Positions 7,564-38,295 of a stretch of 64,000 bases of DNA are shown here, piece by piece. Positions within the stretch are counted from its first letter, which is position 1, and each line of letters starts with the position of its first letter. The stretch is from Lentilactobacillus sunkii DSM 19904. Its GTDB lineage: Bacteria > Bacillota > Bacilli > Lactobacillales > Lactobacillaceae. The notes beneath the pieces are model-generated. The model worked only from the letters and a program-made list of their open reading frames with translations. It was not told the origin of the DNA and searched no databases. Where the stretch lies: the NCBI RefSeq assembly GCF_001435575.1, contig NZ_AZEA01000006.1, forward strand, positions 712 to 64,711, read 5' to 3'. Both the position numbers and the translations under genes were made by a program.

Positions 7564-8622
7564 CTATTTATTCTGTCCAATATTTTCAAAATCAGGGTTG
7601 ACCATCAACTCTGCGAGTTCCTTTGGGTTCACGTTGCCAATATTGTCTGTCAGATGGCTGTTTTCAAATGCTTCGATTAAATTATCACGTTCAAATGGGA
7701 CTCCAGTAATGTGTTCTTCGATCTCTGCCAGATTCCCGTTGGCCTTGTTAAAGTCGCCAAAAATTTTAGCATGGGTCACAATGCCGTTATTGACCGAAAA
7801 GCTGACTTCAACATTGCCGACACCATCAAAGTGGTTTGAATGGAAGTAGTTGTCATGAAGTTTCTTACCCATGATCCAATCATCACCCGGATAGTCTTTT
7901 TGACGCATGGCTTCAATCTTGTCCCAGTCTTTCGAGTCAAATCGGTAGGTTGGAACATCTGCCAAGTCATCAACTTGAAAGATTTCTTTTAAAATCATCC
8001 CAAGAATATCTTCGATTGAGATATCTTTGTATTGGTCGCTGAAGTATGGCCGCAGGTTGGTCACCCGGCTGTGCACGGACTGGACACCCTTGGACGCCAG
8101 TTTTGATTTGGTTGGGTTCAGTGCTTTGGCAGCTGCGTCCAGATCAACGTCGATCATTAAAGTACCGCCGACATAAAACCGGCTGCCGGCTTTAAACGTT
8201 GCCATCCCGGAGAATTTCTTACCATCAACCGTTAAGTCATTTCTCCCACTTAATTCAGCATCGACTCCCAAACGCTTGAGAACGTTAATGACAGGGGTCG
8301 CATATTTTTTGAAATTCATGTAATTGGTGCCGTCATCGGTATCGATAAATGAATAGGTGAGGTTACCCGAATCCACATAGACGGCACCACCACCGCCTGC
8401 TCGACGGGCAATTTGAATATCATGGGCTTTGATATAATCCAAGTTCAGTTCTGAGTAAATATTTTGATTGCCGCCAATGATCACAGAAGGTTTCATTGGC
8501 CGGGACCAGTTGAACAACGTTTCGTCAAAACGATCGTCAGCCATTAGGTAACGAGAGGCGATTTCAAAGGTCATTGGATTGCCGGAATAGTCGGCTTTTG
8601 AAGACAGATCAGTATAAAGCAA
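7564..8622 (-). CDS. lplA: Lipoate-protein ligase (LplA type)
   Basis: This 352-aa protein activates lipoate with ATP and attaches it to lipoyl domains of 2-oxoacid dehydrogenases or GcvH. The lipoate-binding loop RRAGGGGAVYVDSGN is at about residues 73-87, and the catalytic lysine lies in DGKKFSGMATF (Lys136 most likely). The C-terminal about 100 residues form the LplA accessory domain. The minus-strand ATG at 8622 has an AGGGAGTG-like site upstream. The 180-aa hypothetical gene follows 5 nt after its stop codon. Nothing in the sequence looks defective. Confidence 0.92.
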   Translation of the reverse strand: MLYTDLSSKADYSGNPMTFEIASRYLMADDRFDETLFNWSRPMKPSVIIGGNQNIYSELNLDYIKAHDIQIARRAGGGGAVYVDSGNLTYSFIDTDDGTNYMNFKKYATPVINVLKRLGVDAELSGRNDLTVDGKKFSGMATFKAGSRFYVGGTLMIDVDLDAAAKALNPTKSKLASKGVQSVHSRVTNLRPYFSDQYKDISIEDILGMILKEIFQVDDLADVPTYRFDSKDWDKIEAMRQKDYPGDDWIMGKKLHDNYFHSNHFDGVGNVEVSFSVNNGIVTHAKIFGDFNKANGNLAEIEEHITGVPFERDNLIEAFENSHLTDNIGNVNPKELAELMVNPDFENIGQNK

Positions 8623-8721
8623 AGTATCACTCCCTTACATTAAGTAACCGTTTATGGCGCTAAGTATAGCATCTTATCGGCTTACTCAGGATGAATTTGC
8701 TTGCTTCAATGTCCAAGGGAT

Positions 8722-9915
8722 TTATCGATACATGACCAATTTTCCGTGCATGGTGTTCCATAGGATAATAATCCCTATCAGGACCAGTAAAACAGCGCTG
8801 GTAGCGATTATAAACAGGGCGGTGTACGAAGACATCTCAATGACCAGACCGCCAAATAGAGGGCCGAGAGCCCGTCCTGCAGATGCCCAGGATTGAATCA
8901 GACCTTGGTATCTGCCTTTTGCTTCAATCGGTGTCAATGTATTGACCAAGGCAGGAATGGTTGGCAGGGCGGTTGCCTCGCCAATTGTCAGGGTGACCAT
9001 TGCCAACACGAAGAAAGGATAGGTTTTTGCGAAGATCAAGACCACAAAGGATAACGACATCATGAAAACCCCGAAGAAAATCTCCAGAATCATATTTTCG
9101 TGGTACCTTGAGATCCAATTAATGATGATTTGAGCAATTACAATCACCCCACCATTAATCGTCCAAAGCAGACTGTAATTACGAAGTGGAATACCAATTC
9201 CGGTCATATAGACAGATAAGTTGGACACCCATTGCTGGTACATAATCCAAATAATGAATAATGAGAGAAAAAATGTAAAAAGCATAATTGCGTTGGGCTT
9301 TGGCAGACTTTTCGACGACCAAGTGGTTTTTTCGGTGTCGGAGACCTTCTTGCGTGATTCATTGGCAGCGGGCTTAAACTTCAGCACGACAATCAGCAGG
9401 AATATGGCAAAGAGGGTTGTTGCAACAATGAACATCAACGTGACACTGATACTGTAAATGAAGCCAACCAGAGAAGTACCAATGACAATCCCCAAATTTT
9501 GAGCGAAGTACAGCATATTGAAAACATAGCGGCTGTCCTGAGATCTAATCCCGGTTCCAATCGAATTGACAACAGCGATGTTCCAGCCACCGGCAATTCC
9601 ATTGAAGAAAAGGATGATTCCAAATGCCGGCCAACCATGGAAAAAGACCAGCATGATCAAGGTCAGCGTTGTGGAGGCGACCCCACCAATCAATAGGTGA
9701 TAAGGATTCTTCCGGTCATATAGGTACCCGCCGAGATAACTGCCCAACACACTTGCCAGGGAGTTGAACAACAGAACAATCCCAATGACAGTCAGAGAAA
9801 CACCCAACCGATCATGCAGATAAACACTGGTTAACGGCCAGACAAAGCTCATTCCAATACTACTGAACATGCCACCGATGATCAGCCATTTTAATTTCAT
9901 TTCATTTGCGGGCAT
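8722..9915 (-). CDS. MFS transporter, DHA1/MdtG-like drug exporter
   Basis: This is a 397-aa protein with 12 predicted membrane segments. The MFS motif is visible in the loop after helix 2 (GSYLGGYLYDRKNPY), and RYQGLIQSWASAGRALGPLFGG lies in the C-terminal half, as in MdtG/YfmO-type exporters. The ATG at 9915 is preferred because AGAAGG lies 9 nt upstream on the minus strand. It is divergent from the OsmC gene at 10107 and shares an intergenic region of about 190 bp with it. The exported compound cannot be predicted. Confidence 0.82.
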   Translation of the reverse strand: MPANEMKLKWLIIGGMFSSIGMSFVWPLTSVYLHDRLGVSLTVIGIVLLFNSLASVLGSYLGGYLYDRKNPYHLLIGGVASTTLTLIMLVFFHGWPAFGIILFFNGIAGGWNIAVVNSIGTGIRSQDSRYVFNMLYFAQNLGIVIGTSLVGFIYSISVTLMFIVATTLFAIFLLIVVLKFKPAANESRKKVSDTEKTTWSSKSLPKPNAIMLFTFFLSLFIIWIMYQQWVSNLSVYMTGIGIPLRNYSLLWTINGGVIVIAQIIINWISRYHENMILEIFFGVFMMSLSFVVLIFAKTYPFFVLAMVTLTIGEATALPTIPALVNTLTPIEAKGRYQGLIQSWASAGRALGPLFGGLVIEMSSYTALFIIATSAVLLVLIGIIILWNTMHGKLVMYR

Positions 9916-12620: not shown

Positions 12621-12629
12621 TTGGGGTGG

Positions 12630-15230
12630 ATGCATATGCTGTTACAGCGTGGCCGTCATGCGAAACGTAACTTCTATATATTAGCGGTACTGATTCCAAT
12701 CTTATTGGTCAGTGCTTTATTTGTGATGATCGGGATTGCACCTTTTGGGCCCCACAATCTGCTGGTCAGTGACCTTTCAACTCAATATTTACAATTCTTT
12801 TCTGAATTAAAGCGCCAACTGACCCACTTTTCATTTTCAGGATATTCATTTCTGATGTCGCTTGGTGACAATCTGGTGCCAATTTATGCTTACTATTTGT
12901 TGAGTCCACTGAACATCATTACTTTGTTCTTTGGGAATGCCCAGCTTCCAATTGCCATTGATCTAATCATCTGGATCAAGCTCATCTTGTGCTCAATTAG
13001 TATGAGCTGGTTTCTCGCCAAAAAGTACCAAGCCTATGATTTGATGGCCGTATATGGCGGCGTGGCATATGGCCTCTGTGGTTTTGTCTCGATGTATTTC
13101 TACGATCTGATGTGGCTGGATGCTTTGATCTGGCTGCCGGTAATGGTTTATGGCTTGGAAAAGCTGTATTACAGGGGCAAACCTGCGATTTACATCATTG
13201 GGCTGATCGCAATCATCATGACCAACTTCTACATGGGATATATCATCTGCATCTTTAATGTCTTATATTTGGCCTTTTTGATAAAGAAAAATCAACCATT
13301 CAACCTCACGTTCACTCAGAACCTGGATGCCAACCGAAGCAAAATTATCCGGTTTATCTGGTATTCATTACTTTCGGCGATGTCAGCAGCTGTTGTGCTG
13401 ATACCAACTGCAATTAGCATGTTGGCAACTGGCAAGAAAAATTTATTGAGTGCAAACTTTTTATTCAAGGGAACTTTCGGTCTCAGTTTTCCGGTCAATC
13501 TGGGTGTTGGCGGAAACGACTTTGCCGGCCGACTGGTCCATAATCCCAGCTTTTTCACTGGTTCACTGTTCATTATTGGTTCAGTCGTCTACTTCTTTTC
13601 CAAATTCATCAGCAAGCGGGATAAGCAGGCGGCCGGAATATTGATTGGCGGCATTTTTGTTGGGATGTGGTTTCTACCATTTAACACAATCTGGCACATG
13701 ATGCAGCAGCCGGCCGGCTTTCCGTTCCGAATGGTTTTTCTCTTCAGCTTTGCGATTATCATGATTACATATGAAGGATATCTTCAGGGGATGTTTGCCG
13801 AAGAAAAGCTGTTGATTCGTTCATCAATCGGGATTGCTGCTGCCATTTTGATTGGCTATGTTTTTGCTAACATTGAAGGTCAGAAACTGATGGAATTTCG
13901 CTTTGACATTCCCCAATTATCCGTGCGGAACATTGTCTTTGCCTTTGTTGCCGGATTTATGATTGTGACGACCATTGTCATGATTGGGGTCGGTAAGCAT
14001 CAGCGGATCAGTACAATCCTTCTTGGGTTTATTTTGGCTGCAGAGCTTGGACTGAACTTTATGATTGCGACAGATGGCGCACCATTTGGGAATCAAAAAG
14101 ATTTTGAACAGACGTATGCCCAATCAACGAAAAAAATCGGCGCTGTTGAGAAACGATACCGATCGGATGATGGCTTTTATCGTTTTCTGGTGATTAATAA
14201 GCCGTTCCGAAATTTGTTCAAGGTTCCTTATAATGGATACAACGATTCGTTCCTCTATCGAAATCACGGCATCAGCTCATACAGCTCAACGTTAAACGCC
14301 AATACTCACCATGTTCTGGGCGACCTTGGATTTTCCACAAGAAATATTCGCAGAATTGATTTACTTGGTGGAACGACCATTACCAATTATTTCTTTGGCT
14401 TGAAATACTTCTATTTCATTGGAAATCAAAGCCAGCATTTGATTGTTAGAAAGCAGACTTCCGGACTTGGATTCATGGCAAATGACCAGATTCAACATCT
14501 TAAGCTAAAGCGGGACCGGACTTTTGACAATCTGAATCACTTTGTGCAGGCAGTTTCCGGCACCAACAAACAATATTTGGTTAAACCAACGATTGTCAGT
14601 ACTGCAAAATATGTCACCCGAGACTACTTTGGGTATAAAGTGCAGTTTATGGCTAACACCAAGGGACCTCACTATTTGTATATTCCGAGAACACGGCTGA
14701 TTGGTGTGTCGTTTTACGTAAATGGGCAAAAATTATCCAATCTATATAGTGGGTTGGGAACTGAAATGATCCCAATGGGTTACATGCAAAAAGGGCAGGT
14801 CTCCACGGTTACAATTCATGCCAATAAAGAGCTGTCGAAGATTCCCCAAGACCTGAGCGGAATCAATATGACCAATTTGAGACGCGTAGAAGCTTATCAA
14901 AATACCCACAAATTCAAGTTGCAGCAGCCAAATCAACTTAATGAACATGGGGCTCATTTTAAAGGTCATGTTAATGTGTCAGGCAGGGCGAAGACATTGG
15001 TGCTTACAATTCCGTTCGATAAGGGATGGCGGGTTAAAGTGGACGGTCATCAACAAGCAGTCAAGAAAGCTGCCGGTGGACTGGTCGGCGTTCAATTGTC
15101 GCCCGGTCGACATGAAATTGCCTTTAATTATCATATAAAGGGGCTCTTGGCAGGCGCCCTTGTAACGCTGGCAGGCCTGCTGGGACTATGTGGTACTGCA
15201 GTTTGGCGGCGCTTTCAGCAAAAACTGTAA
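12630..15230 (+). CDS. YfhO-family polytopic membrane protein (probable GT-C-like glycosyltransferase)
   Basis: This protein of about 866 aa has some 12 or more hydrophobic segments in the first 480 residues, a large outward-facing domain of about 330 residues, and a final membrane helix (GLLAGALVTLAGLLGLCG). It matches YfhO in length and in early motifs such as SDLSTQYLQFF, SLGDNLVP and YGLCGFVSMYFYDLMWLDALIWLP. YfhO proteins are linked to glycosylation of lipoteichoic acid outside the membrane, using lipid-linked sugars made by a CsbB-type enzyme; no such partner is adjacent. The frame is open from a TTG at 12621, but the GGGGTGG at 12623-12629 suggests initiation at ATG 12630 or, with better spacing, 12636. 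Confidence 0.85.
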   Translation: MHMLLQRGRHAKRNFYILAVLIPILLVSALFVMIGIAPFGPHNLLVSDLSTQYLQFFSELKRQLTHFSFSGYSFLMSLGDNLVPIYAYYLLSPLNIITLFFGNAQLPIAIDLIIWIKLILCSISMSWFLAKKYQAYDLMAVYGGVAYGLCGFVSMYFYDLMWLDALIWLPVMVYGLEKLYYRGKPAIYIIGLIAIIMTNFYMGYIICIFNVLYLAFLIKKNQPFNLTFTQNLDANRSKIIRFIWYSLLSAMSAAVVLIPTAISMLATGKKNLLSANFLFKGTFGLSFPVNLGVGGNDFAGRLVHNPSFFTGSLFIIGSVVYFFSKFISKRDKQAAGILIGGIFVGMWFLPFNTIWHMMQQPAGFPFRMVFLFSFAIIMITYEGYLQGMFAEEKLLIRSSIGIAAAILIGYVFANIEGQKLMEFRFDIPQLSVRNIVFAFVAGFMIVTTIVMIGVGKHQRISTILLGFILAAELGLNFMIATDGAPFGNQKDFEQTYAQSTKKIGAVEKRYRSDDGFYRFLVINKPFRNLFKVPYNGYNDSFLYRNHGISSYSSTLNANTHHVLGDLGFSTRNIRRIDLLGGTTITNYFFGLKYFYFIGNQSQHLIVRKQTSGLGFMANDQIQHLKLKRDRTFDNLNHFVQAVSGTNKQYLVKPTIVSTAKYVTRDYFGYKVQFMANTKGPHYLYIPRTRLIGVSFYVNGQKLSNLYSGLGTEMIPMGYMQKGQVSTVTIHANKELSKIPQDLSGINMTNLRRVEAYQNTHKFKLQQPNQLNEHGAHFKGHVNVSGRAKTLVLTIPFDKGWRVKVDGHQQAVKKAAGGLVGVQLSPGRHEIAFNYHIKGLLAGALVTLAGLLGLCGTAVWRRFQQKL

Positions 15231-15459: not shown

Positions 15460-16362
15460 ATGCAAATTGGTATGATTGGTCTCGGAAAAATGGGTCTTAA
15501 CCTTGTTAAGAACATGATCCGTAACGGTAACGAAGTTGTTGCATTTGATTTGGACGAAGCAAACATCAAATTAGCTCAAGAAGCCGGTGCAACTCCAGCT
15601 TCAAGCAACAAAGATCTTGTAAGCAAGTTGGATGCACCACGCACTGTCTGGATCATGGTTCCAGCAGGCAAGCCAACTGACTCAACTGTTACTGAACTCG
15701 TTGGCCTTCTTTCAAAGGGTGATTACCTCATTGATGGTGGTAACTCATTCTATCAAGACTCAATTCGTCATGGTAAGATTGCTGAAGAAAAAGACATTAA
15801 CTTCTTCGATTGTGGTACTTCAGGTGGTAAGAACGGTGCCCTTAATGGTGGTAACTTCATGATCGGTGGTACCAGTGCTGAAGCATTTGAACACATCAAG
15901 CCATTATTCGAAGGAATTTCACAAAAAGACGGCTACCTTTACACTGGCAAGCCAGGTTCAGGTCACTACTTGAAGATGGTTCATAACGGTATCGAATACG
16001 GTATGATGGAAGCCATCGGTGAAGGATACGACGTTTTGGACCACAGCCCATACGACTATGACAACGAAGCAGTTGCCAAAGTTTGGGTAAACGGATCAGT
16101 TATCCGTGGATGGCTCATGGAATTGGCCCAAGAAGCATTCGCAAACGATGCCAACTTGGATCAAATCAGCGGCAAGATGTTCTCATCAGGTGAAGGTAAG
16201 TGGACTGTTCAAGAAGCCCTTAAGCAAGGCATCCCAGTTCCAGTTATCACTGATTCATTGTTCGCACGTAACCGTTCAATGGAACAAGATACATTTACAG
16301 GTAAAGTCGTATCAGCATTGCGTCACGGATTCGGTGGCCATGCGATGGATATGAAAAAATAA
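15460..16362 (+). CDS. gnd: 6-phosphogluconate dehydrogenase, decarboxylating, short form
   Basis: This 300-aa protein oxidises and decarboxylates 6-phosphogluconate to ribulose 5-phosphate. The N-terminal Rossmann motif is GLGKMGLNLVKNM, and the substrate-binding signature is GTSGGKNGALNGGNFMIGG, followed by the catalytic-lysine region KMVHNGIEYGMM. It is the short GndA/YqeC-type subunit (about 300 aa) rather than the 470-aa form. In a heterofermenter it is the step that feeds phosphoketolase and it works with the gluconokinase at 35353-36897. Its ATG has GAAAGAGG upstream, and its stop codon overlaps the first base of repeat copy C. Confidence 0.93.
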   Translation: MQIGMIGLGKMGLNLVKNMIRNGNEVVAFDLDEANIKLAQEAGATPASSNKDLVSKLDAPRTVWIMVPAGKPTDSTVTELVGLLSKGDYLIDGGNSFYQDSIRHGKIAEEKDINFFDCGTSGGKNGALNGGNFMIGGTSAEAFEHIKPLFEGISQKDGYLYTGKPGSGHYLKMVHNGIEYGMMEAIGEGYDVLDHSPYDYDNEAVAKVWVNGSVIRGWLMELAQEAFANDANLDQISGKMFSSGEGKWTVQEALKQGIPVPVITDSLFARNRSMEQDTFTGKVVSALRHGFGGHAMDMKK

Positions 16363-29268: not shown

Positions 29269-29931
29269 TTAGTTCTTGAAATAATCTGGGTAGGCATCGA
29301 CAACCTTCTGCTTTTCCAGCAACATCAAGTGCAGGTGTTGGGTAACCAGAAAGCTGAGATCATCGATATCTTTGTTGTTCACGGCATTAAAAATTGCCTG
29401 ATGCTGGTTGGTAAGTGTATCCCAATCCAACTCGGTTTCCTTTAACCGCAAACGACGGAAGCGGTTCAACTGGGTGTTGTTAATCTGCAGCCAATTCCAA
29501 ACAGTGTCTTTATCAACAACTTTATAAAAGGCATGGTGAAATTCCTGATCCAAATCAAAGAAATTGTCCGGCTCATTTTTCAAAGCCGTTTGTTGCTGTT
29601 GATCCAAATTCTTTTGGATTGCACTAATGTCGTCGTCAGAAATATTGACTGCAGCGTCTACCATGATTTTTGGCTCGATGCAGCTGCGAACAAAACGGGC
29701 ATTTTTGGCATCTGCCATATCAATCTTGGTGATATAGGTCCCACTCTGAGGTATCACTTCGATCAAACCCTCACGCTCAATTCGAATGATTGCCTCTCTG
29801 ACGGGGGTCCGGCCAAGGTTTAATTCTTGGGAAATCATTTTTTCCGAGATCTTTTGGCCCGGAATATAGTCAAAATGAATGATTCGATATTTAATTTCAT
29901 TGTAAGCGTCGCTGCGCATATTATCCAACAT
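29269..29931 (-). CDS. GntR/FadR-family regulator of uronate genes (UxuR-like)
   Basis: This 220-aa protein has a winged HTH (residues 5-75: SEKMISQELNLGRTPVREAIIRIEREGLIEV read in pieces) and an FCD ligand domain (about 80-210), with metal-binding residues in DLDQEFHHAFY and QHLHLM. FadR-subfamily FCD proteins often bind uronates or other sugar acids. It is divergent from the uxuB operon, whose promoter carries TGATATATCA and TGGTGTACCA, close to the TGGTATACCA operator known for E. coli UxuR/ExuR. It is therefore probably the repressor of uxuB-uxaC and of the dehydrogenase at 34207. Confidence 0.85.
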   Translation of the reverse strand: MLDNMRSDAYNEIKYRIIHFDYIPGQKISEKMISQELNLGRTPVREAIIRIEREGLIEVIPQSGTYITKIDMADAKNARFVRSCIEPKIMVDAAVNISDDDISAIQKNLDQQQQTALKNEPDNFFDLDQEFHHAFYKVVDKDTVWNWLQINNTQLNRFRRLRLKETELDWDTLTNQHQAIFNAVNNKDIDDLSFLVTQHLHLMLLEKQKVVDAYPDYFKN

Positions 29932-30010
29932 AATAACTCTCCTTTAGATACCATAATATTAGCATAGATTGGTGAAAAAGTTAACGAGGATCGTTGAAAA
30001 AACTAGGGTA

Positions 30011-30075
30011 TTGACAATCTGATATATCAGAATATAATAAAAGCGAAAGCGTATTCAGGAGACTGGTGTACCAGT
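30011..30075 (+). promoter_or_regulatory. uxuB operon promoter with two palindromic operators and a CRE
   Basis: The -35 TTGACA (30011-30016) and -10 TATAAT (about 30033-30038) have a 16-bp spacer that holds the perfect palindrome TCTGATATATCAGA (30018-30031). Downstream come a CRE, CGAAAGCGTATTCA (30044-30057), and a second palindrome, ACTGGTGTACCAGT (30062-30075). Both palindromes fit TGRTRTAYCA, a FadR/UxuR-type operator. Binding by the divergent GntR protein is inferred. Confidence 0.75.
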
Positions 30076-30139
30076 TCTGATTTTTCACTCATACGCCTCA
30101 AGTTTTAACTTATGTAACGCAATACGGGAGGTTTAATTA

Positions 30140-31765
30140 ATGGTAAAAATTACGGATGATTACCTGAACAACAAGAAGGAATTTACCGACGCTGGAATTA
30201 AGGTTCCAACCTATGATATTAAGCAAAAGAGTGGCGCCACCAAATGGGTCCACTTCGGCGGTGGTAACTTGTTCCGAGCTTTTCACGCAGCTATTGCGGA
30301 CCGCTTGCTAGAATCAGGCGATCTGGATGCAGGTATTGTCGTTGCCGAAACCCACGATAAAGACGTTGTCAAAGACGCATACAAAAAATTTAACGATCGA
30401 ATTTTAAGAGTGATTACTCACGAAGACGGCAAGTTTGAAAAAGAATTATTTGCTTCAGTTGCCGACTCGCTCTTCTTCGACCAAAGCAATCCTGATGGCT
30501 GGAAGAAATTATTCAGCATCTTCGAAAATCCAGCCCTTCAACTTGCTACTTTCTCAATTACTGAAAAAGGCTACAACCTTTGGGACAGTCAAGGTGACTT
30601 ACTTCCAGCTATCCAGGACGATATCAAGAATGGTCCCGAAGCTCCAAAGAACAACATGGCTTCACTAACTGCCTTGATGTTTGCCCGATTCAAAGCCGGC
30701 AAGTACCCAATGGCTTTACTCAGCACAGATAACTTCTCACAAAATGGTGAAAAACTGCAAAAGAGTGTCTTGACCATTGCTGAAGGATGGGAAAAGAACG
30801 GTTTGGTTCCGGCAGAATTTGTCGCCTATCTCAAAGACGACAAGTCTGTCAGCTTCCCACTTTCAATGATTGACCGAATCACACCGAACCCTTCAGACGC
30901 CGTTTCAGACAAGCTTAAAACAGACGGTTTTGAAGACTATCAGATCTTCCATACCCCAGGTCATACCAACATTGCTGCATTTACCAATACTGAAGAAGTG
31001 CATTACCTGGTTATCGAAGACGACTTTCCAAATGGCCGTCCAGCATTGGATAAAGCATCCGGCGTTACTTTAACGGATCGCCAGACAGTTAACGATGCCG
31101 ATGAGATGAAAGTAACGACTTGTTTGAACCCACTGCACACCGCATTGGCGGTTAACGGCAGTCTGCTTGGTTTTGATTCGATTGCCAAAGAAGTCAGTGA
31201 CCCCGACATGCTCAACTTGATCAAGCAAATCGGTTACGTTGAAGGCCTGCCGGTAGTTAAGGATCCCAAGGTTATCAACCCCAAGACCTTTATCGACCAA
31301 CTGGTTAACAAGCGTCTTCCCAACCCATATATTCCTGATATGCCACAACGAATTGCTTCAGACACCTCACAGAAATTGTCTGTCCGTTATGGCGTAACAA
31401 TTCAGCATTATATCGACGATCCAAAACGTGATCCTAAAGACTTGCACTTTATCCCACTTGTCCTTGCAACCTGGTGCCGTTACCTGATGGCCATTGATGA
31501 TCAGGGCAAGCCGTTTGAACCAAGTCGGGACCCAATGTTATCAGAACTCCAGCCTAAAGTTGCCGACATTAAGCTCGGTGAAAAGACTGATGTTCACGCT
31601 CATTTGAAGGACATTTTATCCAACAAGAAGATCTTTGGTCATGACCTTTATGCCATCGGCCTGGGAGAAGTTGTTGAAGGATACTTTGCCTCACAAATTG
31701 CCGGTGTCGGTGCCGTTCGAAAGACACTTGAAGATACATTGTCAAAGTACGCTAAAGAAATTTAA
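30140..31765 (+). CDS. uxuB: Fructuronate reductase / D-mannonate oxidoreductase
   Basis: This 541-aa member of the polyol-specific long-chain dehydrogenase family has the Rossmann-start motif [17 protein letters not shown] at about residues 33-49, and the length and C-terminal domain of UxuB. The catalytic-lysine region lies in [12 protein letters not shown]. It reduces D-fructuronate to D-mannonate with NADH. It is the first gene of uxuB-uxaC-lacX-like, with 17 bp to the next start. The ATG has GGGAGG upstream. The partner mannonate dehydratase (uxuA) is not found in this window. A related tagaturonate reductase activity (UxaB) is a less likely alternative. Confidence 0.88.
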
Positions 31766-31782
31766 TTAAGGAGAACGTAAAT

Positions 31783-33207
31783 ATGTCATTATTGGATGAT
31801 GATTTTCTGTTAACAACCCCAATGGCTAAAAAGTTATTCCATGATCACGCTGAAAAAATGCCGATCATTGATTTTCATTGCCACTTGGATCCTAAAGAGA
31901 TTTATGAGAACAAGAATTACAAAAATATTTCCAGAATTTGGATTAATGAAGGCAGCTTTGGTGACCACTACAAATGGCGCTTGATGCGTGCCAACGGTGT
32001 TCCTGAGGACCTCATTACCGGCGACGGTGACGATTATCAAAAGTTCCTTGCATGGGCCGGAACCATTGAAAAAGCCCTTGGTAACCCATTATTTGAGTGG
32101 ACCCACCTTGAGCTTCGCCGCTTCTTTGGCATCAATGATGTCTTCAATACCAAAACAGCTCCTGCAATTTGGGAAAAGGCCAACAAACTTTTGGCTACTG
32201 AAGACTTCAAACCCCGTAATTTGATTAAGCGTTCAAACGTTCAGGTTGTCTGCACCACTGATGACCCTGCGTCTGATTTGAAATATCATAAATTGCTCAA
32301 AGAAGATGAAGCTCGAAACGGCTTCAAAGTATTACCAGCAATGCGTCCCGATAAGGCGTTCAACCTGACTGCAGACAGCTATGGCGATTATCTTGATCAA
32401 TTAGCCAAAGTTTCCGGTAAGAAGATTACGTCATTCAAGAGCCTGGTTGGTGCTTTACGTCAACGTTTCGAATACTTTGAAAGCCTGGGCGGTCACCTTT
32501 CAGATCACGGCCTGAACTTCTTCCATTTTGTTAAAGCTTCGGATGATGAAATGAACGATATCATCGACAAAGCCCGTAACAACAAGAAACTCACCAAGAC
32601 TGAAGTTGACCAGTATCAGACGATGTTGGTTGAAGCCTTGATGCATTTGAATAAGGAGTTCAACTGGACAATGCAGTTCCATATGAATGTCATCAGAAAC
32701 GCCAACAAGCCAATGCTTAAGAGCTTTGGTACCGATGGCGGCTTTGACTCAATGGGAACTCAGCCTGATTTGGCTCAAGAATTCATGAAACTGTTAATGG
32801 ACGCTCAAGAACAGGATCAGATCCCAAAGATGATCATTTACTCATTGAATCCAAACGACTGGATGCAACTGGCAACCGGTATGGGTGACTTCCAACAAGA
32901 CGGTGTCCAAAAGTTTCAATTAGGTGCTGCTTGGTGGTTCAATGATACTTTTGACGGGATGAAACGCCAGCTGACAATTATGGCTGAGCAAAGCCTTCTG
33001 CCTAACTTTGTTGGGATGCTGACCGACTCACGAAGCTTCTTGTCATATCCACGTCACGAATACTTCAGAAGAGTATTGTGCAATGTGATTGGTGAGTGGG
33101 CCGAACGTGGCCAGGCACCTGATGATGAAGACTATCTGGGCAAGATCGTTGAAGATATTTCCTACAACAATGCCCATGACCAGTTCCATTTCTTTGATAA
33201 AGATTAG
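31783..33207 (+). CDS. uxaC: Glucuronate/galacturonate isomerase
   Basis: This 474-aa protein is a uronate isomerase of the amidohydrolase superfamily: [18 protein letters not shown] carries the HxH metal motif near residue 35, and the tail has [20 protein letters not shown]. It converts D-glucuronate to D-fructuronate (and galacturonate to tagaturonate). With the upstream UxuB it forms the first two steps of glucuronate use. AAGGAGA precedes the ATG 17 bp after uxuB. Its glucuronate would come from the GH115 enzyme at 20194-22245 or from free uronates. Confidence 0.94.
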
Positions 33208-33232
33208 TTCGACACATTAGGAGTGCGGATAG

Positions 33233-34114
33233 ATGCAAACAATAAAAAGCAGTCGGTTTACTGCAGAGATTGACGAGCATGGTGCTCAATTGACCCACCT
33301 GTATAGCAACAATGATCACTTTGACTATATCTGGAACAACCCGCTTTGGGAAAAACATGCGCCAATCCTGTTCCCAGCGATCGGTCGATCCAATGATGAC
33401 GCTTATTTGGTTGATGGCAAGAAGTATGAAATGCCACAGCATGGGTTTGCCGGTGATCACGATTTTGAGGTGGTCAGTCATCAGGATGATCAGGTTGAGT
33501 TATTGCTTCGATCTGATGGATCAACAAAAAAGTATTATCCGTTTGATTTTGAATTCACGGTAACATTTAAACTGAATGATTCAGGCCTACAAGTTGCTTT
33601 CAAGGTTGACAATAAGAGTAATGGCGACCTTTCCTACTCGCTGGGATTTCACCCGGCATTTAACGTTCCGATCAACGGTGAAGGGTCATTTGACGATTAT
33701 CGTTTGGACCTTGCACCTGCATCACAATCTTTGGACACGTACGAAATCGTGAAAAAACCCAACCCTTATCGTTCTGGGAAGGTTACCAAGTTAGTCAACT
33801 ATAAAAACGGCATTGTTGATCTTGACCACAACATGTTTGAAAAAGGCCTGGTTATTATCAAAAATACCGGTATTAAGTCGGTCAAGCTGTACTCAGACGA
33901 TACTGAGCACGCTGTTTCAATTGATGTATCAGATTTTGATCACGTCACCCTCTGGACAAAGGAAGGTGCCAACGCGCCATTCCTATGTATCGAGCCTTTT
34001 AACGGATTACCCGATGTTTATGGTGATTTGGTAGAGTTAAGCCAAAAAGAAGGGAACCACCACTTGTCTGTTGGTGATTCCAAGACATATCAGTGTTTAA
34101 TCAATCTTCACTAG
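33233..34114 (+). CDS. LacX-like aldose 1-epimerase family protein
   Basis: This 293-aa beta-sandwich protein of the galactose-mutarotase-like superfamily is closest in pattern to LacX/YeaD proteins: LYSNNDHFDYIWNNPLWEKHAPILFPAIGRS read in pieces, MPQHGFAGDHDFEV, and LGFHPAFNVPING with a conserved His. It begins 25 bp after uxaC and probably mutarotates a sugar or uronate used by this operon, for example alpha to beta glucuronate as released by glycosidases. It differs from the GalM protein at 43219-44235. Substrate unproven. Confidence 0.8.
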   Translation: MQTIKSSRFTAEIDEHGAQLTHLYSNNDHFDYIWNNPLWEKHAPILFPAIGRSNDDAYLVDGKKYEMPQHGFAGDHDFEVVSHQDDQVELLLRSDGSTKKYYPFDFEFTVTFKLNDSGLQVAFKVDNKSNGDLSYSLGFHPAFNVPINGEGSFDDYRLDLAPASQSLDTYEIVKKPNPYRSGKVTKLVNYKNGIVDLDHNMFEKGLVIIKNTGIKSVKLYSDDTEHAVSIDVSDFDHVTLWTKEGANAPFLCIEPFNGLPDVYGDLVELSQKEGNHHLSVGDSKTYQCLINLH

Positions 34115-34121
34115 AAATAGA

Positions 34122-34185
34122 TTGACAATGTGGTTTTTGAAAACTAGTATATCAGTAGACAGTGAATCAATGATTTTTTGATTCA
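34122..34185 (+). promoter_or_regulatory. Promoter, GntR-type operator and leader hairpin of the dehydrogenase gene
   Basis: The -35 TTGACA (34122-34127) and -10 TAGTAT (34145-34150) are 17 bp apart. The -10 lies inside TAGTATATCA (34145-34154), one base off the TGRTATAYCA operator seen before uxuB. A hairpin TGAATCAA (34163-34170) with TTGATTCA (34178-34185) follows in the leader. This suggests control by the same GntR protein. Confidence 0.65.
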
Positions 34186-34206
34186 TAATATAAATAAGGA
34201 GAGTTT

Positions 34207-35202
34207 ATGATGGAATACAATATTGCGGTCGTTAATTCAAACAGTTTTGGACAGGTTTTTACTGAACATTGGAAGGAACTGGAAGAAATTGGAACTGTTA
34301 AGCGTTTCATGTTACCAACTGACATCGATGGTAAATCATTAGCTGAAAAGCTTCACGGCTTCAACGTGATCATCGCCAGTGTTACCCCATTCTTCAACAA
34401 AGAATTCTTTGATAACAAAGATGATCTGCTGTTGATCTCACGTCATGGAATTGGCTTTAACAACGTTGATCTTGAAGCAGCCAAGAAGCATGGCACTCAA
34501 GTTGCTATCGTGCCACAAAAGGTTGAACGTAACTCAGTTGCCGAAAATGAACTTGCCAACTTGATGGCATTGGTTCGTCAGGTTGTTCCTTCATCAGAAC
34601 GTGAACGTGCCGGCCGCTATGAAGACCGTGCCCAATTCATGGGTAACGAATTCAGTGGTAAGACATTTGGTGTTATCGGCTGTGGAAACATCGGTAGCCG
34701 GGTTGCTGAATTATTCAGTATCTTTGGCGGTCCTGTCTTAGTTAACGATCCACATCCCGCAACTGAACCAGAATGGTTTACCAACAATAACGTTGAACGA
34801 GTAGATCTTGAAACTTTGCTCAGCCGTTGTGACTACATTTCATTGAATGCTTCACTTGATGACACCAGTCTTCATATGATCAATTCAAAGACCATCAAGA
34901 GCCTTAAAAAGGGTGCTTACATCTGTAATAACGCTCGTGGTGCTTTGGTTGAAGAAGACGCTATCAGTGCTGCAATCAAGTCTGGTCAACTCTCAGGTTA
35001 CGCTGCCGATGCAATGGAAGTTGAACCTGTTAAGGCAGACCATCCATTCTTGAAGAACGACCGTATCCTGGTTACACCACATACTTCTGCTTATACTTAC
35101 GAATGTCTTCACGGCATGGGCGAAAAATGTGTCAGCGACGTTAAGGCAATTGTTGCCGGCAAACGTCCTGGACGTGAATTGACTCATACTTTAGACGACT
35201 AA
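34207..35202 (+). CDS. D-isomer-specific 2-hydroxyacid dehydrogenase (candidate mannonate/2-ketogluconate/gluconate oxidoreductase)
   Basis: This 331-aa protein has the NAD-binding motif GVIGCGNIGS (about 155-164) with Asp181 after strand 2, which favours NAD(H). The catalytic triad is Arg244 in CNNARGA, Glu273 in AMEVEPV and His292 in VTPHTSAY. The family reduces 2-keto acids; members include glyoxylate and 2-ketogluconate reductases. It lies between the uxuB-uxaC-lacX genes and gluconokinase and has a uxuB-like operator. I infer that it may oxidise D-mannonate to 2-ketogluconate and/or reduce that to D-gluconate. ATG codons at 34207 and 34210 are both possible after AAGGAGAG. Confidence 0.85.
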   Translation: MMEYNIAVVNSNSFGQVFTEHWKELEEIGTVKRFMLPTDIDGKSLAEKLHGFNVIIASVTPFFNKEFFDNKDDLLLISRHGIGFNNVDLEAAKKHGTQVAIVPQKVERNSVAENELANLMALVRQVVPSSERERAGRYEDRAQFMGNEFSGKTFGVIGCGNIGSRVAELFSIFGGPVLVNDPHPATEPEWFTNNNVERVDLETLLSRCDYISLNASLDDTSLHMINSKTIKSLKKGAYICNNARGALVEEDAISAAIKSGQLSGYAADAMEVEPVKADHPFLKNDRILVTPHTSAYTYECLHGMGEKCVSDVKAIVAGKRPGRELTHTLDD

Positions 35203-35232
35203 AGGAAACCCAGCTCGGATTCCTTGCCACTA

Positions 35233-35295
35233 AGCCATGGACATGATGGAGCGCAGTCGTGCGTTTGATTACTGCTTCATGGCTTAGATGTTGAA
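35233..35295. repeat. Intergenic inverted repeat between the dehydrogenase and gluconokinase genes
   Basis: CTAAGCCATG (35230-35239) pairs with CATGGCTTAG (35278-35287) around a long internal loop that contains GTGCGTTTGATTAC, similar to the CGAGTTTGATTTC loop of repeat copies A and B. The AGAGTG and ACGTTTCGGCTAA ends of that family are not clear here, so I keep it apart. It may be a hairpin that sets relative expression of the two genes. Confidence 0.55.
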
Positions 35296-35352
35296 AAAGG
35301 TCGTTTGAGTACGTTATGACAGAGTTACATTGAAGCTGAAACGGAGATTATT

Positions 35353-36897
35353 ATGGACTATATTATTGGAATTGACGTTGGGACCACCAGCACAAAGGCG
35401 TTGATTTATGATACCGATGGAAATATCTACGGCAAGGCCAATAAAGGCTATCCACTTTACCAGGATACCCCTGACATGGCCGAAGAAGATCCCGATGAGA
35501 TCTTCAATGCCACTGTGTCTGCAATGCAGGAAGTTGTCGCCAAAGCCAACATTACAGATGGTAAAGTGATTGCTATTTCTTGGTCGGCCCAACAACACAG
35601 CTTGATCGCACTTGATAAAGATTTTAAGCCATTGACCAGATCCTTAACTTGGGCAGACAACCGTTCACAAAAGTATGCTGCTGAATATAAGGAAAACGGT
35701 CGCGGAATGGAAATGTATAAGCGAACCGGCTTACCGATTCACCCAATGGGACCATTTTATAAGCTGCTGTACTTCAAGAATGAACAGCCGGAAGTCTTCA
35801 AACAGGCAGCCTACTGGGTTGGAATCAAAGAATATATCATTTGGAAGTATACCGGCGTCCTTAAAGAAGAAGTGTCAATGGCAGCCGCAACCGGCTTGTT
35901 GAACATGAATTCTTCCGAATGGGATGTGGAAGCACTCAAAGAAACCGGCATTACTGAAAAACAACTTCCTGAATTGGTTGATACAACTGATAAGTTCCAA
36001 GGAATCAAATCAGAGTATGCAAAGGTTATCGGCATTGACAAGGATGTGTACTTTGTCATGGGGGCAACTGATGGTGCCCTGTCAACAATTGGCGTCGGCG
36101 CCATTCAAACTGGTGTATTAGCCATTAATATCGGAACATCAGCTGCAGTCAGAACCTTTGTGGACAAGCCACGGGTTGATCCCAAAGCGCGTCTATACTG
36201 TTATCCTGTCATGAAGGGTAAGTACTTGATCGGGGGCCCAATCAACAATGGTGGAATTGTCCTTAATTGGGCTCATGATTCACTGTTTGGCGGTGAAGTC
36301 GAAGCAGCCAAACTGCTGAACATTGATTCGTATGACATGCTTTCAAAGATTGCTGCGACAGTTCCTGCTGGATCAGACGGCTTGATCTTCCATCCATATC
36401 TTGGTGGAGAACGGGCACCACTGTGGGATGCCAACGCACGGGGTTCATTCTTTGGCCTCAACCGTAAGCATACCCGAGCTCACATGATTCGTGCTGTAAT
36501 GGAAGGTATTATGTACAATCTATATTCAGTTACTCTGGCACTCAAAGAAGTTACCGGTGAACCCAAAGCAGTTCTGGCTGCCGGCGGTTTTGCCCGTTCG
36601 ACTCTTTGGACTCAGATGATGGCTGACATTTTTGAACACAATATCGTGATTCCTGAATCATACGAAAGTGGCAGTTTAGCAGCAATGTTTCTTGCCAAGA
36701 TGGCCTTGGGGATGGAAGACAACCTTGAAGACATCAAGAAGTACATGGGCAAAGAAACCGTTTATAAGCCAAATGAAGACGTCTTTAAACGTTACAGAAC
36801 ATTGATGCCGATTTATTTGCGGCTGAGTCGCGATCTCTCTAAGGAATATCAGGGAATCGCGGATTATCAACGTGAATTTACCGACCTGGATGATTAA
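35353..36897 (+). CDS. gntK: Gluconokinase, FGGY family
   Basis: This 514-aa kinase has the N-terminal phosphate loop GIDVGTTSTKALIYDTDG (residues 5-22), the substrate region SWSAQQHSLIALD, and the FGGY-type C-terminal block AVLAAGGFARSTLWTQMMADIF. It phosphorylates gluconate to 6-phosphogluconate, the substrate of Gnd at 15460-16362. The sequence is of the GntK type rather than ribulokinase (530-560 aa), so it is not the missing araB. It follows the dehydrogenase by 150 bp. No gluconate permease is adjacent, which suggests that gluconate may arise inside the cell. A CGGAG site precedes the ATG. Confidence 0.87.
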   Translation: MDYIIGIDVGTTSTKALIYDTDGNIYGKANKGYPLYQDTPDMAEEDPDEIFNATVSAMQEVVAKANITDGKVIAISWSAQQHSLIALDKDFKPLTRSLTWADNRSQKYAAEYKENGRGMEMYKRTGLPIHPMGPFYKLLYFKNEQPEVFKQAAYWVGIKEYIIWKYTGVLKEEVSMAAATGLLNMNSSEWDVEALKETGITEKQLPELVDTTDKFQGIKSEYAKVIGIDKDVYFVMGATDGALSTIGVGAIQTGVLAINIGTSAAVRTFVDKPRVDPKARLYCYPVMKGKYLIGGPINNGGIVLNWAHDSLFGGEVEAAKLLNIDSYDMLSKIAATVPAGSDGLIFHPYLGGERAPLWDANARGSFFGLNRKHTRAHMIRAVMEGIMYNLYSVTLALKEVTGEPKAVLAAGGFARSTLWTQMMADIFEHNIVIPESYESGSLAAMFLAKMALGMEDNLEDIKKYMGKETVYKPNEDVFKRYRTLMPIYLRLSRDLSKEYQGIADYQREFTDLDD

Positions 36898-36903
36898 ATA
36901 ATT

Positions 36904-36957
36904 GAAGCACTTAACCAACCGGCTGTTTTCAGTGGCCGATTGGTTGGGTGCTTTTTT
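36904..36957 (+). terminator. Terminator of gntK
   Basis: GAAGCAC-AACCAA-CGGC pairs with GCCG-TTGGTT-GGTGCTTTTTT, with a GTTTTCAGTG loop and a clear T tract. Confidence 0.88.
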
Positions 36958-37029
36958 GCTGCTTCCTGTGGAGTTGTCCTACCTTGTTTCAGTTTGTTAG
37001 TAATCCGTTGAAATTAAAAATAGCTAATG

Positions 37030-37081
37030 TTGTCACAAGGTGTTAACAAATAGTATACTTTTAGTTGTGGTTACGTTTTCA
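37030..37081 (+). promoter_or_regulatory. ackA promoter with CRE
   Basis: The -35-like TTGTCA (37030-37035) and -10 TATACT (37054-37059) are 18 bp apart. TGGTTACGTTTTCA at 37068-37081 is a CRE on the reverse strand (TGAAAACGTAACCA). It lies just downstream of the -10, where bound CcpA would repress, although CRE sites upstream of ackA in other Firmicutes activate; the position here favours repression. Confidence 0.65.
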
Positions 37082-37125
37082 TTTCGAAAGAAAGTTTCCA
37101 ATTTAAAACAACGGAGGTACTGATT

Positions 37126-38295
37126 ATGTCCAAAGTTCTGATTGTTAATGCAGGAAGTTCGTCTTTAAAATTCAAGTTATTCGATATGCCTCAAGAAACC
37201 GTGCTGGCCGATGGTGAAGTTGAACGGCTGAACATGCCGGGTTCAAAGGTTAAAATCAAGTATGGCGATGGTAAAGTATACAAATCCGAAGAAGACAAAA
37301 TCGACTACGAACGCTCAGCTGCGATCATGCTGAACAATCTCAAGGATCTGGGTGTCATCGATCACTTGAGAGATATTGACGCCATTGGTAACCGGGTTGT
37401 TGCCGGAAGCGATATCTTTGATAAAGTGGTTAAAATTGATGACGACAGCTTGTCTCAGATTGTCGAATTGGGAGATATTGCCCCCATTCATAATCCGGTT
37501 GAAGCTGAATACATTGAAATCATTCGGCGAATTCTTCCTGATACTGATCAGTACGCGGTCTTTGACAGTGCCTTCTTTAAAGACGTGCCGGAAGTCAACT
37601 CGATTTATGGGATTCCCTATGAGCTGACCAAGAAATTTACTATCCGCCGCTATGGTGAACATGGAATTAATCATGGCTTTATTACCCAGGAAGCCCAAGA
37701 AATGTTGGGCAATGACAAGGCTAAGCTGGTAACCCTTCATTTGGGCTCAGGAGCGTCTGTGGCCGCTGAGAAAAATGGCAAGTGTTATGACACCTCAATG
37801 GGCTTCACACCGATGAACGGCCTTGTAATGGGGACACGTTCGGGGGATGTTGACCCGGCTCTGGTTCCGTTCTTTATGAAGAAAATGGGCGCCAGTGCTG
37901 ACGAAGTGATCGACATGTTCAACAAGCGTTCAGGCTTGCTTGGTGTCTCCGGTGTCTCCTCTGATATGCGTGATTTGGAGGATTCGGATGCTGATCGGGC
38001 TAAATTAGCATTGGACATGTTCGTCAATCGAACGGTTAAGTTTGCCGCCAGCTACATCACTGAACTCGGTGGTGTTGACGCCATTGTCTTTTCTGGTGGA
38101 ATTGGTGAGCACGACAAATGGGTTCGTGAACAGGTCTGCGAGAAGCTTGGGATTTTTGGCATCAAGCTCGATGGTCAATTGAATGAAGAACAAAAACCCG
38201 GTGATCTTGGAGCTAAAGATTCATCTGCACGAATCTTGTTAATTCCTGCTAATGAGGAATTGGCAATGGTGCGGGATGTGGCAAAAGAACTTTAA
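37126..38295 (+). CDS. ackA: Acetate kinase
   Basis: This 389-aa ASKHA-fold kinase has the signature VNAGSSSLKFKLF at the N-terminus, HHLGSGAS-like TLHLGSGASVAAEKNG in mid-protein, the acetate-binding region MGTRSGDVDPALV, and VFSGGIGEH near the C-terminus. It converts acetyl phosphate and ADP to acetate and ATP. In heterofermenters acetyl phosphate comes from phosphoketolase acting on xylulose 5-phosphate, so this placement after gluconate and uronate genes fits pentose-phosphate flux. It has its own promoter and an ACGGAGG site, and is followed by a terminator. Confidence 0.95.
   Translation: MSKVLIVNAGSSSLKFKLFDMPQETVLADGEVERLNMPGSKVKIKYGDGKVYKSEEDKIDYERSAAIMLNNLKDLGVIDHLRDIDAIGNRVVAGSDIFDKVVKIDDDSLSQIVELGDIAPIHNPVEAEYIEIIRRILPDTDQYAVFDSAFFKDVPEVNSIYGIPYELTKKFTIRRYGEHGINHGFITQEAQEMLGNDKAKLVTLHLGSGASVAAEKNGKCYDTSMGFTPMNGLVMGTRSGDVDPALVPFFMKKMGASADEVIDMFNKRSGLLGVSGVSSDMRDLEDSDADRAKLALDMFVNRTVKFAASYITELGGVDAIVFSGGIGEHDKWVREQVCEKLGIFGIKLDGQLNEEQKPGDLGAKDSSARILLIPANEELAMVRDVAKEL

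Follow-up and report, generated by a model that had tools for sequence, protein, structure and literature searches.

A linked 2-hydroxyacid dehydrogenase and FGGY kinase as candidates for the missing steps of a hybrid uronate-to-phosphoketolase route in Lentilactobacillus sunkii and other Lactobacillaceae

The operon described here is located in a stretch of 64,000 nucleotides of the genome of Lentilactobacillus sunkii DSM 19904 (contig NZ_AZEA01000006.1, positions 712 to 64,711 of the forward strand), hereafter the window, which sits on contig C56 of an assembly of 2.69 Mb in 79 contigs. In this operon, the uronate genes uxuB and uxaC are followed by genes coding for a D-isomer 2-hydroxyacid dehydrogenase (DH) and for an FGGY kinase annotated as gluconokinase (GntK). 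On the basis of gene content, linkage, co-occurrence, and phylogeny, the operon is a candidate for encoding the hybrid route from uronates to phosphoketolase that was originally demonstrated in L. suebicus (Paucilactobacillus suebicus). The kinase and DH are probably the two enzymes missing from that route, with DH required for the inversion, and a more tentative proposal is that DH might be sufficient on its own, acting as an NAD-retaining 6-phosphomannonate/6-phosphogluconate 2-epimerase. The useful outcome of the analysis is therefore a gene assignment, in which the kinase at 35353-36897 and DH at 34207-35202 are good candidates for the two steps.

The passages of Valk et al. 2020 (PMC6978723) drawn on here report that an extract of L. 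suebicus supplied with mannonate without ATP formed no gluconate, while in the presence of ATP mannonate was converted into 6-phosphomannonate and then into 6-phosphogluconate; the extract also converted 6-phosphogluconate into 6-phosphomannonate, in a recipe that lists no NAD. According to the same passages, UxaC, UxaE, UxuB, GntK, Gnd, and phosphoketolase were detected in the proteome of galacturonate-grown cells (deposited as PRIDE PXD015964), and UxuA, KdgK, and KdgA, although encoded, were not. The kinase and epimerase genes were left without an assignment there; one of two gluconate kinase homologues was suspected as the kinase, and the lead for the epimerase was an unlinked aldose-1-epimerase homologue. 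The Michaelis constant of the extract kinase was about 10 mM for gluconate and an estimated 0.4 mM or so for mannonate. The route is redox-neutral from uronates to ribulose-5-phosphate, and was called attractive for the fermentation of pectin-rich residues (PMC6978723). The words "hydroxyacid" and "2-hydroxy" have zero occurrences in the main text of that paper. In the open-access literature (titles and abstract starts, subscription papers lying outside the scope), "phosphomannonate" was found in this one paper only and a gene assignment for the two steps was not found in print. The original prediction for this operon had presented the conversion as possibly new, and had placed DH on free mannonate, before the kinase. 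The first point is superseded by PMC6978723 and the second is at odds with the biochemistry reported there: since the L. suebicus extract phosphorylates before epimerising, the substrate of DH should be 6-phosphomannonate and that of the "gluconokinase" mannonate.

The features of the window are the following (window positions; profile scores in bits):

12621-15230: YfhO membrane protein, not a phosphoketolase
15460-16362, plus strand: Gnd, a 6-phosphogluconate dehydrogenase of 300 aa, lying about 14 kb upstream of uxuB (PF03446 and PF00393)
29269-29931, minus strand: GntR/FCD regulator, divergent from uxuB (Pfam GntR and FCD)
30020-30029, no strand: operator-like palindrome TGATATATCA, exact TGRTATAYCA, 120 bp upstream of uxuB (motif search)
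30140-31765, plus strand: UxuB-type long-chain dehydrogenase, fructuronate reductase, which makes D-mannonate (Pfam Mannitol_dh and Mannitol_dh_C)
31783-33207, plus strand: UxaC, uronate isomerase (NCBIfam, 602 bits, cut-off 387)
33233-34114, plus strand: aldose-1-epimerase-like protein, probably a uronate mutarotase (Pfam Aldose_epim)
34145-34154, no strand: operator-like site TAGTATATCA, one mismatch, upstream of DH (motif search)
34207-35202, plus strand: D-isomer 2-hydroxyacid dehydrogenase (DH), 331 aa (PF02826 and PF00389 above cut-off)
35353-36897, plus strand: FGGY kinase, annotated gluconokinase, GntK (TIGR01314, 668 bits, cut-off 648.55)
37126-38295, plus strand: acetate kinase AckA (TIGR00016, 417 bits, cut-off 293), which converts acetyl phosphate into acetate and ATP in the last step of the phosphoketolase branch

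These profile matches bear out the gene content originally read from the sequence (UxuB, UxaC, DH, gluconokinase, acetate kinase, and Gnd), UxuB being assigned at the family level only, as its NCBIfam fructuronate reductase score of 126 bits is far below the cut-off of 603. The phosphoketolase that had been expected to complete the route has no match within the window, and two genes for it are located elsewhere in the genome (contigs C8 and C12); both the upper part of the hybrid route (UxaC and, at family level, UxuB) and its lower part (Gnd, phosphoketolase, and AckA) are encoded in this genome. In the proposed route, UxaC would convert glucuronate into fructuronate and UxuB fructuronate into D-mannonate, which the FGGY kinase (35353-36897) would phosphorylate at C6; DH (34207-35202) would then invert C2, turning 6-phosphomannonate into 6-phosphogluconate, from which Gnd, phosphoketolase, and AckA would yield lactate and acetate. 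Most simply, DH would work alone, through an enzyme-held 2-keto-6-phosphogluconate and with NAD as an internal hydride carrier. The assignment of genes to steps and this internal-hydride mechanism are what we infer from the comparisons below. Glucuronate seems the likelier substrate of the operon, since UxaC is present and there is no UxaE in it.

The search for DH loci consisted of one scan of named genomes; DH was the sole query, so that the scan is limited to close relatives. It disclosed 47 loci, 37 of them in Lactobacillaceae (DH identity at least 61%), nine outside the family (49-55%), and one distant paralogue, L069 (22%). The window DH shares 98-99% identity with its counterparts in L. 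otakiensis, L. kefiri, and L. parakefiri, which belong to the genus Lentilactobacillus as well. The counts that follow refer to the 37 Lactobacillaceae loci, omitting L069 and the nine outside the family, which are associated with a phosphotransferase system (PTS); L056 (Bombilactobacillus), counted among the 37, is likewise PTS-type, without UxuB or GntK, and L053 comes from a metagenome-assembled genome (MAG). Within 6 kb of DH, GntK and UxuB are each found in 33 of the 37 loci, followed by the aldose-1-epimerase-like gene (23), GntR (17), UxaC (16), Gnd (14), and UxuA (5). The adjacency of DH, UxuB, and GntK is conserved, with differing gene orders, across the seven genera that harbor the DH-kinase module, i.e., Lentilactobacillus, Levilactobacillus, Lactiplantibacillus, Secundilactobacillus, Pediococcus, Paucilactobacillus, and Limosilactobacillus. 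In Pediococcus acidilactici (L045), the genes for a transporter, UxaE (a Pfam tagaturonate epimerase), UxaC, UxuB, DH, and GntK are consecutive, with Gnd nearby; in the type strain of the species in which the route was shown, Paucilactobacillus suebicus DSM 5007 (L050), GntK, GntR, UxuB, DH (at 8001-8993), and Gnd are clustered. AckA immediately follows GntK in L024, L025, and L026, and is near it in L033. As a control, 20 UxaC regions were taken from DH-less genomes (20 of 24 such genomes; the absence of DH follows from this choice, and one region, L090, is only 5.3 kb long): UxuB and UxuA are at most 1 kb apart in 14/20 of them and GntK is present in 0/20. DH thus occupies the place beside UxuB that UxuA holds in KDG-type operons, KDG being 2-keto-3-deoxygluconate.

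The nine loci outside Lactobacillaceae belong to Gilliamella (six), Zophobihabitans, an Aerococcaceae MAG, and Streptococcus caviae, and in all nine DH adjoins a mannose-type PTS (IIC, IID, IIB, and IIA; Pfam was run on the L058 and L065 proteins); in S. caviae, the cluster of DH and the PTS also takes in Gnd and an iron alcohol dehydrogenase. A PTS phosphorylates its sugar during import, so that a kinase would be dispensable in these loci if DH acts on the 6-phosphate. In the two PTS-type genomes searched (G035 and G038), GntK has no match at E 1e-60; together with the 9/9 association with the PTS, this points to a phosphorylated substrate of DH. Clusters that join DH to Gnd and to an (iron) alcohol dehydrogenase are found in L065 (7083-12858), L102, and L138 (6932-9283, the end of an Enterococcus faecium plasmid), a mannose-type PTS also being present in the first two; they might represent a kinase-free form of the module. 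On a 29 kb plasmid of Leuconostoc citreum (L137:903-3447), DH stands beside an FGGY kinase, with Gnd and a 2-keto-3-deoxy-6-phosphogluconate (KDPG) aldolase about 4 kb away; the DH-kinase module also travels on plasmids.

The co-occurrence of these genes was assessed in 221 Lactobacillaceae genomes of at least 90% completeness, DH being called at E <=1e-80; this set overlaps with the genomes of the named loci (G165 and G022 give identical matches), and the two are not independent. UxaC was found in 46 genomes, DH in 24, and UxuA in 45, one fragment included; the fragment in G159 was then omitted from the UxuA count. UxaC is present in 22 of the 24 genomes with DH and in 24 of the 197 others (Fisher 1.5e-15, uncorrected for relatedness). 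The contrast with KdgA was chosen once 42 of the 46 genomes with UxaC had turned out to have UxuA as well. KdgA was searched, together with Lar_N (the LarA-type epimerase family), in 54 genomes, i.e., all 46 with UxaC, two others with DH, and six from the named-locus set. DH occurs in 13 of the 14 UxaC genomes without KdgA and in 9 of the 32 with KdgA (Fisher p 6e-5); at the genus level, KdgA loss is observed in 5/5 genera having DH in UxaC genomes and in 1/10 of the others (p 0.002). Ten genomes with UxaC and UxuA have no PF01081 aldolase (G119, G249, G043, G056, G092, G147, G151, G215, G233, and G236), and KDG is perhaps handled in them by another aldolase family.

Four UxaC genomes are without UxuA: three of one genus, with Pediococcus-like loci and all with DH, and G130, without DH. 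Two Pediococcus-like genomes (G165 and G189, one of them a single contig), which have no UxuA or KdgA match, keep the transporter-UxaE-UxaC-UxuB-DH-GntK order and Gnd. Among the named genomes, which carry no completeness figure, the UxuA search covered those of 41 of the 47 DH loci and gave no match in six, i.e., L. fabifermentans, P. acidilactici, P. pentosaceus, Limosilactobacillus coleohominis, Ca. L. excrementigallinarum, and Streptococcus caviae; five of these six are without a KdgA match as well, S. caviae having two, and UxaC is seen at the DH loci of the first three. Lar_N has no match in the genome of L. sunkii, on which ground a LarA/GntE enzyme was rejected there, nor in 20 of the 24 DH genomes; a Lar_N protein is carried by G130 (L079).

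GntK was searched in 18 genomes. Two copies (above 40% identity) are present in 10 of the 12 Lactobacillaceae genomes with DH, or in 9 of 11 when G022 and G165, whose matches are the same, are treated as one, and a single copy in 4/4 searched genomes without DH. Quick trees were constructed on 50 of 72 GntK rows and 51 of 60 UxuB rows, duplicates and rows below 40% identity having been removed. In the first, the 37 DH-linked copies fall inside a clade of 39; the 11 copies of a separate clade, among them the second GntK of L. sunkii (contig C79), are all unlinked. One unlinked copy of the DH clade (G151) shares its contig with DH, at a distance of about 21 kb. In the second, all 33 DH-linked UxuB rows join in one clade of 37. 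A UxaC control tree on the same regions mixes only somewhat more (6 changes vs. 3 to 5); as descent of the genera could explain much of the pattern, the UxuB clades were not taken as proof of specialisation.

As for the DH protein, no NCBIfam equivalog model is reached at its cut-off (best 193 bits vs. 454). Arg244, Glu273, and His292, aligned with those of phosphoglycerate dehydrogenase, are invariant in 25/25 orthologues, and the GxGxxG loop is kept (Gly158-x-Gly160-x-x-Gly163); we take the former to be the catalytic triad and the latter the NAD-binding loop. When compared with 11 paralogues of the genome, the invariant residues of the subfamily lie near 10-15, 79-80, and 106-108 and include Asn10, Ser11, Ser13, Phe14, Gly15, Arg79-His80, and Val106-Glu107-Arg108; it may be guessed that they bind phosphate. 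The AlphaFold model (mean pLDDT 86) resembles glyoxylate reductases, D-lactate and phosphoglycerate dehydrogenases, and McyI; some of the McyI entries are titled "with prebound NAD", which shows that this fold can retain NAD.

The genome also carries genes of the canonical route. The absence of uxuA and kdgA from the window, as originally stated, is confirmed, all four matches of the genome search being on other contigs: two copies of uxuA, both on C45, and two of kdgA, on C45 and C67. PfkB-type KdgK-like kinases lie beside kdgA and uxuA; they are assigned by similarity and context, a relative in L043 being under every curated KdgK cut-off. A second uxuB-uxaC pair (L021:11391-14449), 79% and 81% identical to the window pair, adjoins kdgA and a kdgK-like gene. 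In principle, therefore, the host could use the KDG route, contrary to the supposition that it is devoid of it, and the hybrid route would be an additional branch here. A functional KDG set elsewhere in the genome had been named as a finding that would speak decisively against the hybrid route. The genome search disclosed uxuA, kdgA, and kdgK-like genes, so that by this measure the idea would be refuted; the requirement is considered too strict, because L. suebicus encodes both sets and yet UxuA, KdgK, and KdgA do not appear in its proteome as described in the consulted passages of PMC6978723.

With regard to regulation, sites of the form TGRTATAYCA had been reported before both uxuB and DH; the copy before uxuB (TGATATATCA) is exact, and that before DH (TAGTATATCA) has one mismatch. 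The exact motif occurs once in the window. Chance alone would give 0.23 occurrences, and the motif turned up in 21 of 100 shuffled sequences, so that what counts is the position and the conservation of the site rather than its mere presence. In the L. kefiri counterpart, an exact site precedes both uxuB and DH. Sites with at most one mismatch are found, in the 37 named loci plus the window, upstream of UxuB in 23/33 cases, GntK in 15/35, and DH in 11/38, vs. 32/254 unlabelled reading frames; in regions of the 221-genome set, DH-less ones included, the figures are 15/28 for UxuB, 4/10 for GntK, 0/13 for DH, and 1/18 for UxuA, vs. 27/261. These counts suggest that uxuB and the kinase are likely co-regulated, and that a separate site upstream of DH is at most a Lentilactobacillus feature. 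A strong hairpin (z -3.1, no Rfam match) lies between DH and GntK, at 35203-35352. It was rejected as a shared regulator, none being seen in five Lentilactobacillus relatives (the compared stretches were cut at approximate gene ends, two reaching into GntK); it is perhaps a small inserted repeat.

Several observations weigh against the assignment of DH and the kinase to the hybrid route. The KDG-route genes occur in the very genome of the window, and one-mismatch sites are found there upstream of the two uxuA genes and of the second uxuB, so the KDG and hybrid routes may answer to related regulators. UxuA is retained in 10 of the 14 UxaC genomes without KdgA; G130 (L079) has UxaC and no match for UxuA, KdgA, or DH; G142 and G143, of the PTS type, carry DH without UxaC; and a Lar_N protein is present in 4/24 DH genomes. 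The window GntK scores above the gluconokinase cut-off of TIGR01314, and some genomes without DH nevertheless contribute to the DH-linked clades: G086 a long-branched GntK, G136 and G175 one UxuB each. Lastly, the known D-2-hydroxyacid dehydrogenases yield (R)-2-hydroxy acids and C2 of mannonate is (S); to our knowledge, one enzyme working in both stereo-directions would be the first in the family. The caution about C2 stereochemistry expressed in the original prediction stands.

It is mainly this stereochemical difficulty that keeps alive a variant of the same proposal, in which the inversion takes two enzymes: a second oxidoreductase would oxidise mannonate or its 6-phosphate at C2, and DH would reduce 2-keto(-6-phospho)gluconate to the (R) product, in keeping with the usual stereochemistry of the family. 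The oxidase might be UxuB, binding a pseudo-symmetric substrate in reverse, or an unlinked enzyme. The presence of UxuB near DH in 33 of 37 loci and the single clade of DH-linked UxuBs, UxaC of the same regions mixing somewhat more, are consistent with the former, although the UxuB clades may mirror the descent of the genera; furthermore, DH has an iron alcohol dehydrogenase as its partner in the PTS-type L065 and L102, that of L065 being nearest to YbdH-type PRK10586 (235 bits, cut-off 429). Nevertheless, no second 2-hydroxyacid oxidoreductase common to the UxuB-type clusters was seen, and the L. suebicus extract epimerised 6-phosphogluconate in a recipe described in PMC6978723 without NAD, of which the extract itself may hold some. 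On balance, a two-enzyme inversion is judged unlikely.

A different explanation is that the genes serve the use of ketogluconates, imported and deriving from neighbouring acetic acid bacteria: DH would then reduce 2-ketogluconate or 2-keto-6-phosphogluconate, the kinase would be a genuine gluconokinase, and the link with UxaC would be regulatory only. Such a function would agree with the score of GntK, with the inclusion in the fold family of a chain of solved structure, 9m0t, that bears the name "probable 2-ketogluconate reductase", with the DH-GntK pairs of Lentilactobacillus dabitei and fungorum (L027 and L028), which have no UxuB inside 6 kb, and with the PTS-type loci, whose imported acid may be such a compound. 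It is at variance with the occurrence of UxaC in 22/24 DH genomes and with the second GntK, outside the DH clade, owned by most of them. Moreover, P. acidilactici has DH-GntK within a complete uronate operon, and, as its genome has no UxuA or KdgA match, mannonate would have no other known exit there. This explanation, too, appears improbable.

One might also imagine that the kinase is indeed a mannonate kinase and that the epimerase is another protein, either the aldose-1-epimerase-like neighbour or an unlinked one, with DH in a side role. The lead given in the passages of PMC6978723 is an unlinked aldose-1-epimerase homologue, and an aldose-1-epimerase-like gene is present in the window operon and at most 6 kb from DH in 23/37 loci. 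However, 8 of the 20 regions from DH-less genomes also have such a gene at most 4 kb from UxaC, from which it appears to track UxaC, and it is absent from the DH clusters of P. acidilactici, L. fabifermentans, and L. suebicus. The protein at 33233-34114 was therefore set aside as first-choice epimerase, and remains a weak rival; the explanation as a whole is quite improbable. Least probable of all, and very unlikely, is that the operon feeds only the KDG route through uxuA and kdgA on other contigs, DH and the kinase having an unrelated gluconate function and being adjacent by chance: the uxuA, kdgA, and kdgK-like genes and the similar operator-like sites before both uxuA and the second uxuB would fit, but the adjacency is conserved in seven genera despite differing gene orders and DH occurs in 13/14 UxaC genomes without KdgA.

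We thus return to DH and the FGGY kinase as the probable enzymes of the middle part of the hybrid route. Of the original prediction, the inversion of mannonate C2 into the 6-phosphogluconate/phosphoketolase pathway by DH and the kinase agrees with gene order, co-occurrence, and published biochemistry; the order of the two steps has been changed. For each open step of PMC6978723, one candidate gene is now offered, with orthologues in L. suebicus itself named, and gene content would predict which heterofermentative lactobacilli ferment uronic acids (plant sugar acids) to lactate and acetate through the phosphoketolase pathway by the hybrid route. Should the assignment be correct, some proteins annotated as gluconokinase would act on mannonate, and the module would comprise DH and a mannonate-specific FGGY kinase in seven Lactobacillaceae genera and a Leuconostoc plasmid, with a PTS-coupled, kinase-free form outside the family. 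Should DH be a stand-alone epimerase, it would represent a new reaction type for a well-studied dehydrogenase family, and, as far as we know, the first epimerase in the D-2-hydroxyacid dehydrogenases; it would stand at the junction of uronate metabolism where the nickel enzyme GntE acts, to which it is not homologous.

Two other proteins were observed near DH in some loci. The first, of about 400 aa, has a condensation domain and is found in L. fabifermentans (L037:11480-12724, PF00668 just above cut-off), in Limosilactobacillus (L053:9056-10264, below cut-off), and on the L. citreum plasmid (L137:5611-6771, by annotation). The second is a glucarate-dehydratase-like protein near UxuB-DH in L044, L047, and L053 (1297-2625, 709 bits, cut-off 829).

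The proposed system can be compared with four known ones. With the canonical uronate isomerase route (UxaC, UxuB, UxuA, KdgK, and KdgA) it has UxaC and UxuB in common, and the genome also encodes uxuA, kdgA, and kdgK-like genes; however, UxuA, KdgK, and KdgA lie outside the window operon, and that route has no need for DH or GntK. A mannonate epimerase, GntE, was proposed by Rodionova 2012, as cited in PMC6978723, where gntE is described between the fructuronate reductase and gluconate kinase genes; in the part of PMC7583248 drawn on here, it is a nickel-pincer D-gluconate 2-epimerase of the LarA family, acting on free mannonate. GntE likewise joins mannonate to gluconate metabolism, and DH holds the position of gntE in L037 and L045, but GntE belongs to another protein family, matched by no Lar_N protein in the genome of L. 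sunkii, and differs in cofactor and in its unphosphorylated substrate. The L. suebicus route shares the UxaC/UxuB upper part and the Gnd/phosphoketolase/AckA lower part, and GntK, GntR, UxuB, and DH are clustered in the L. suebicus type strain; in the published route, the middle genes are unidentified and the epimerase lead is unlinked, whereas here linked DH and kinase genes are proposed. Finally, DH shares the fold, the Arg/Glu/His residues, and the NAD-binding loop with the D-isomer 2-hydroxyacid dehydrogenases, such as phosphoglycerate dehydrogenase and the glyoxylate/2-ketogluconate reductases; it differs from them in its own set of invariant residues and in the proposed net reaction, which would be an inversion and not a reduction.

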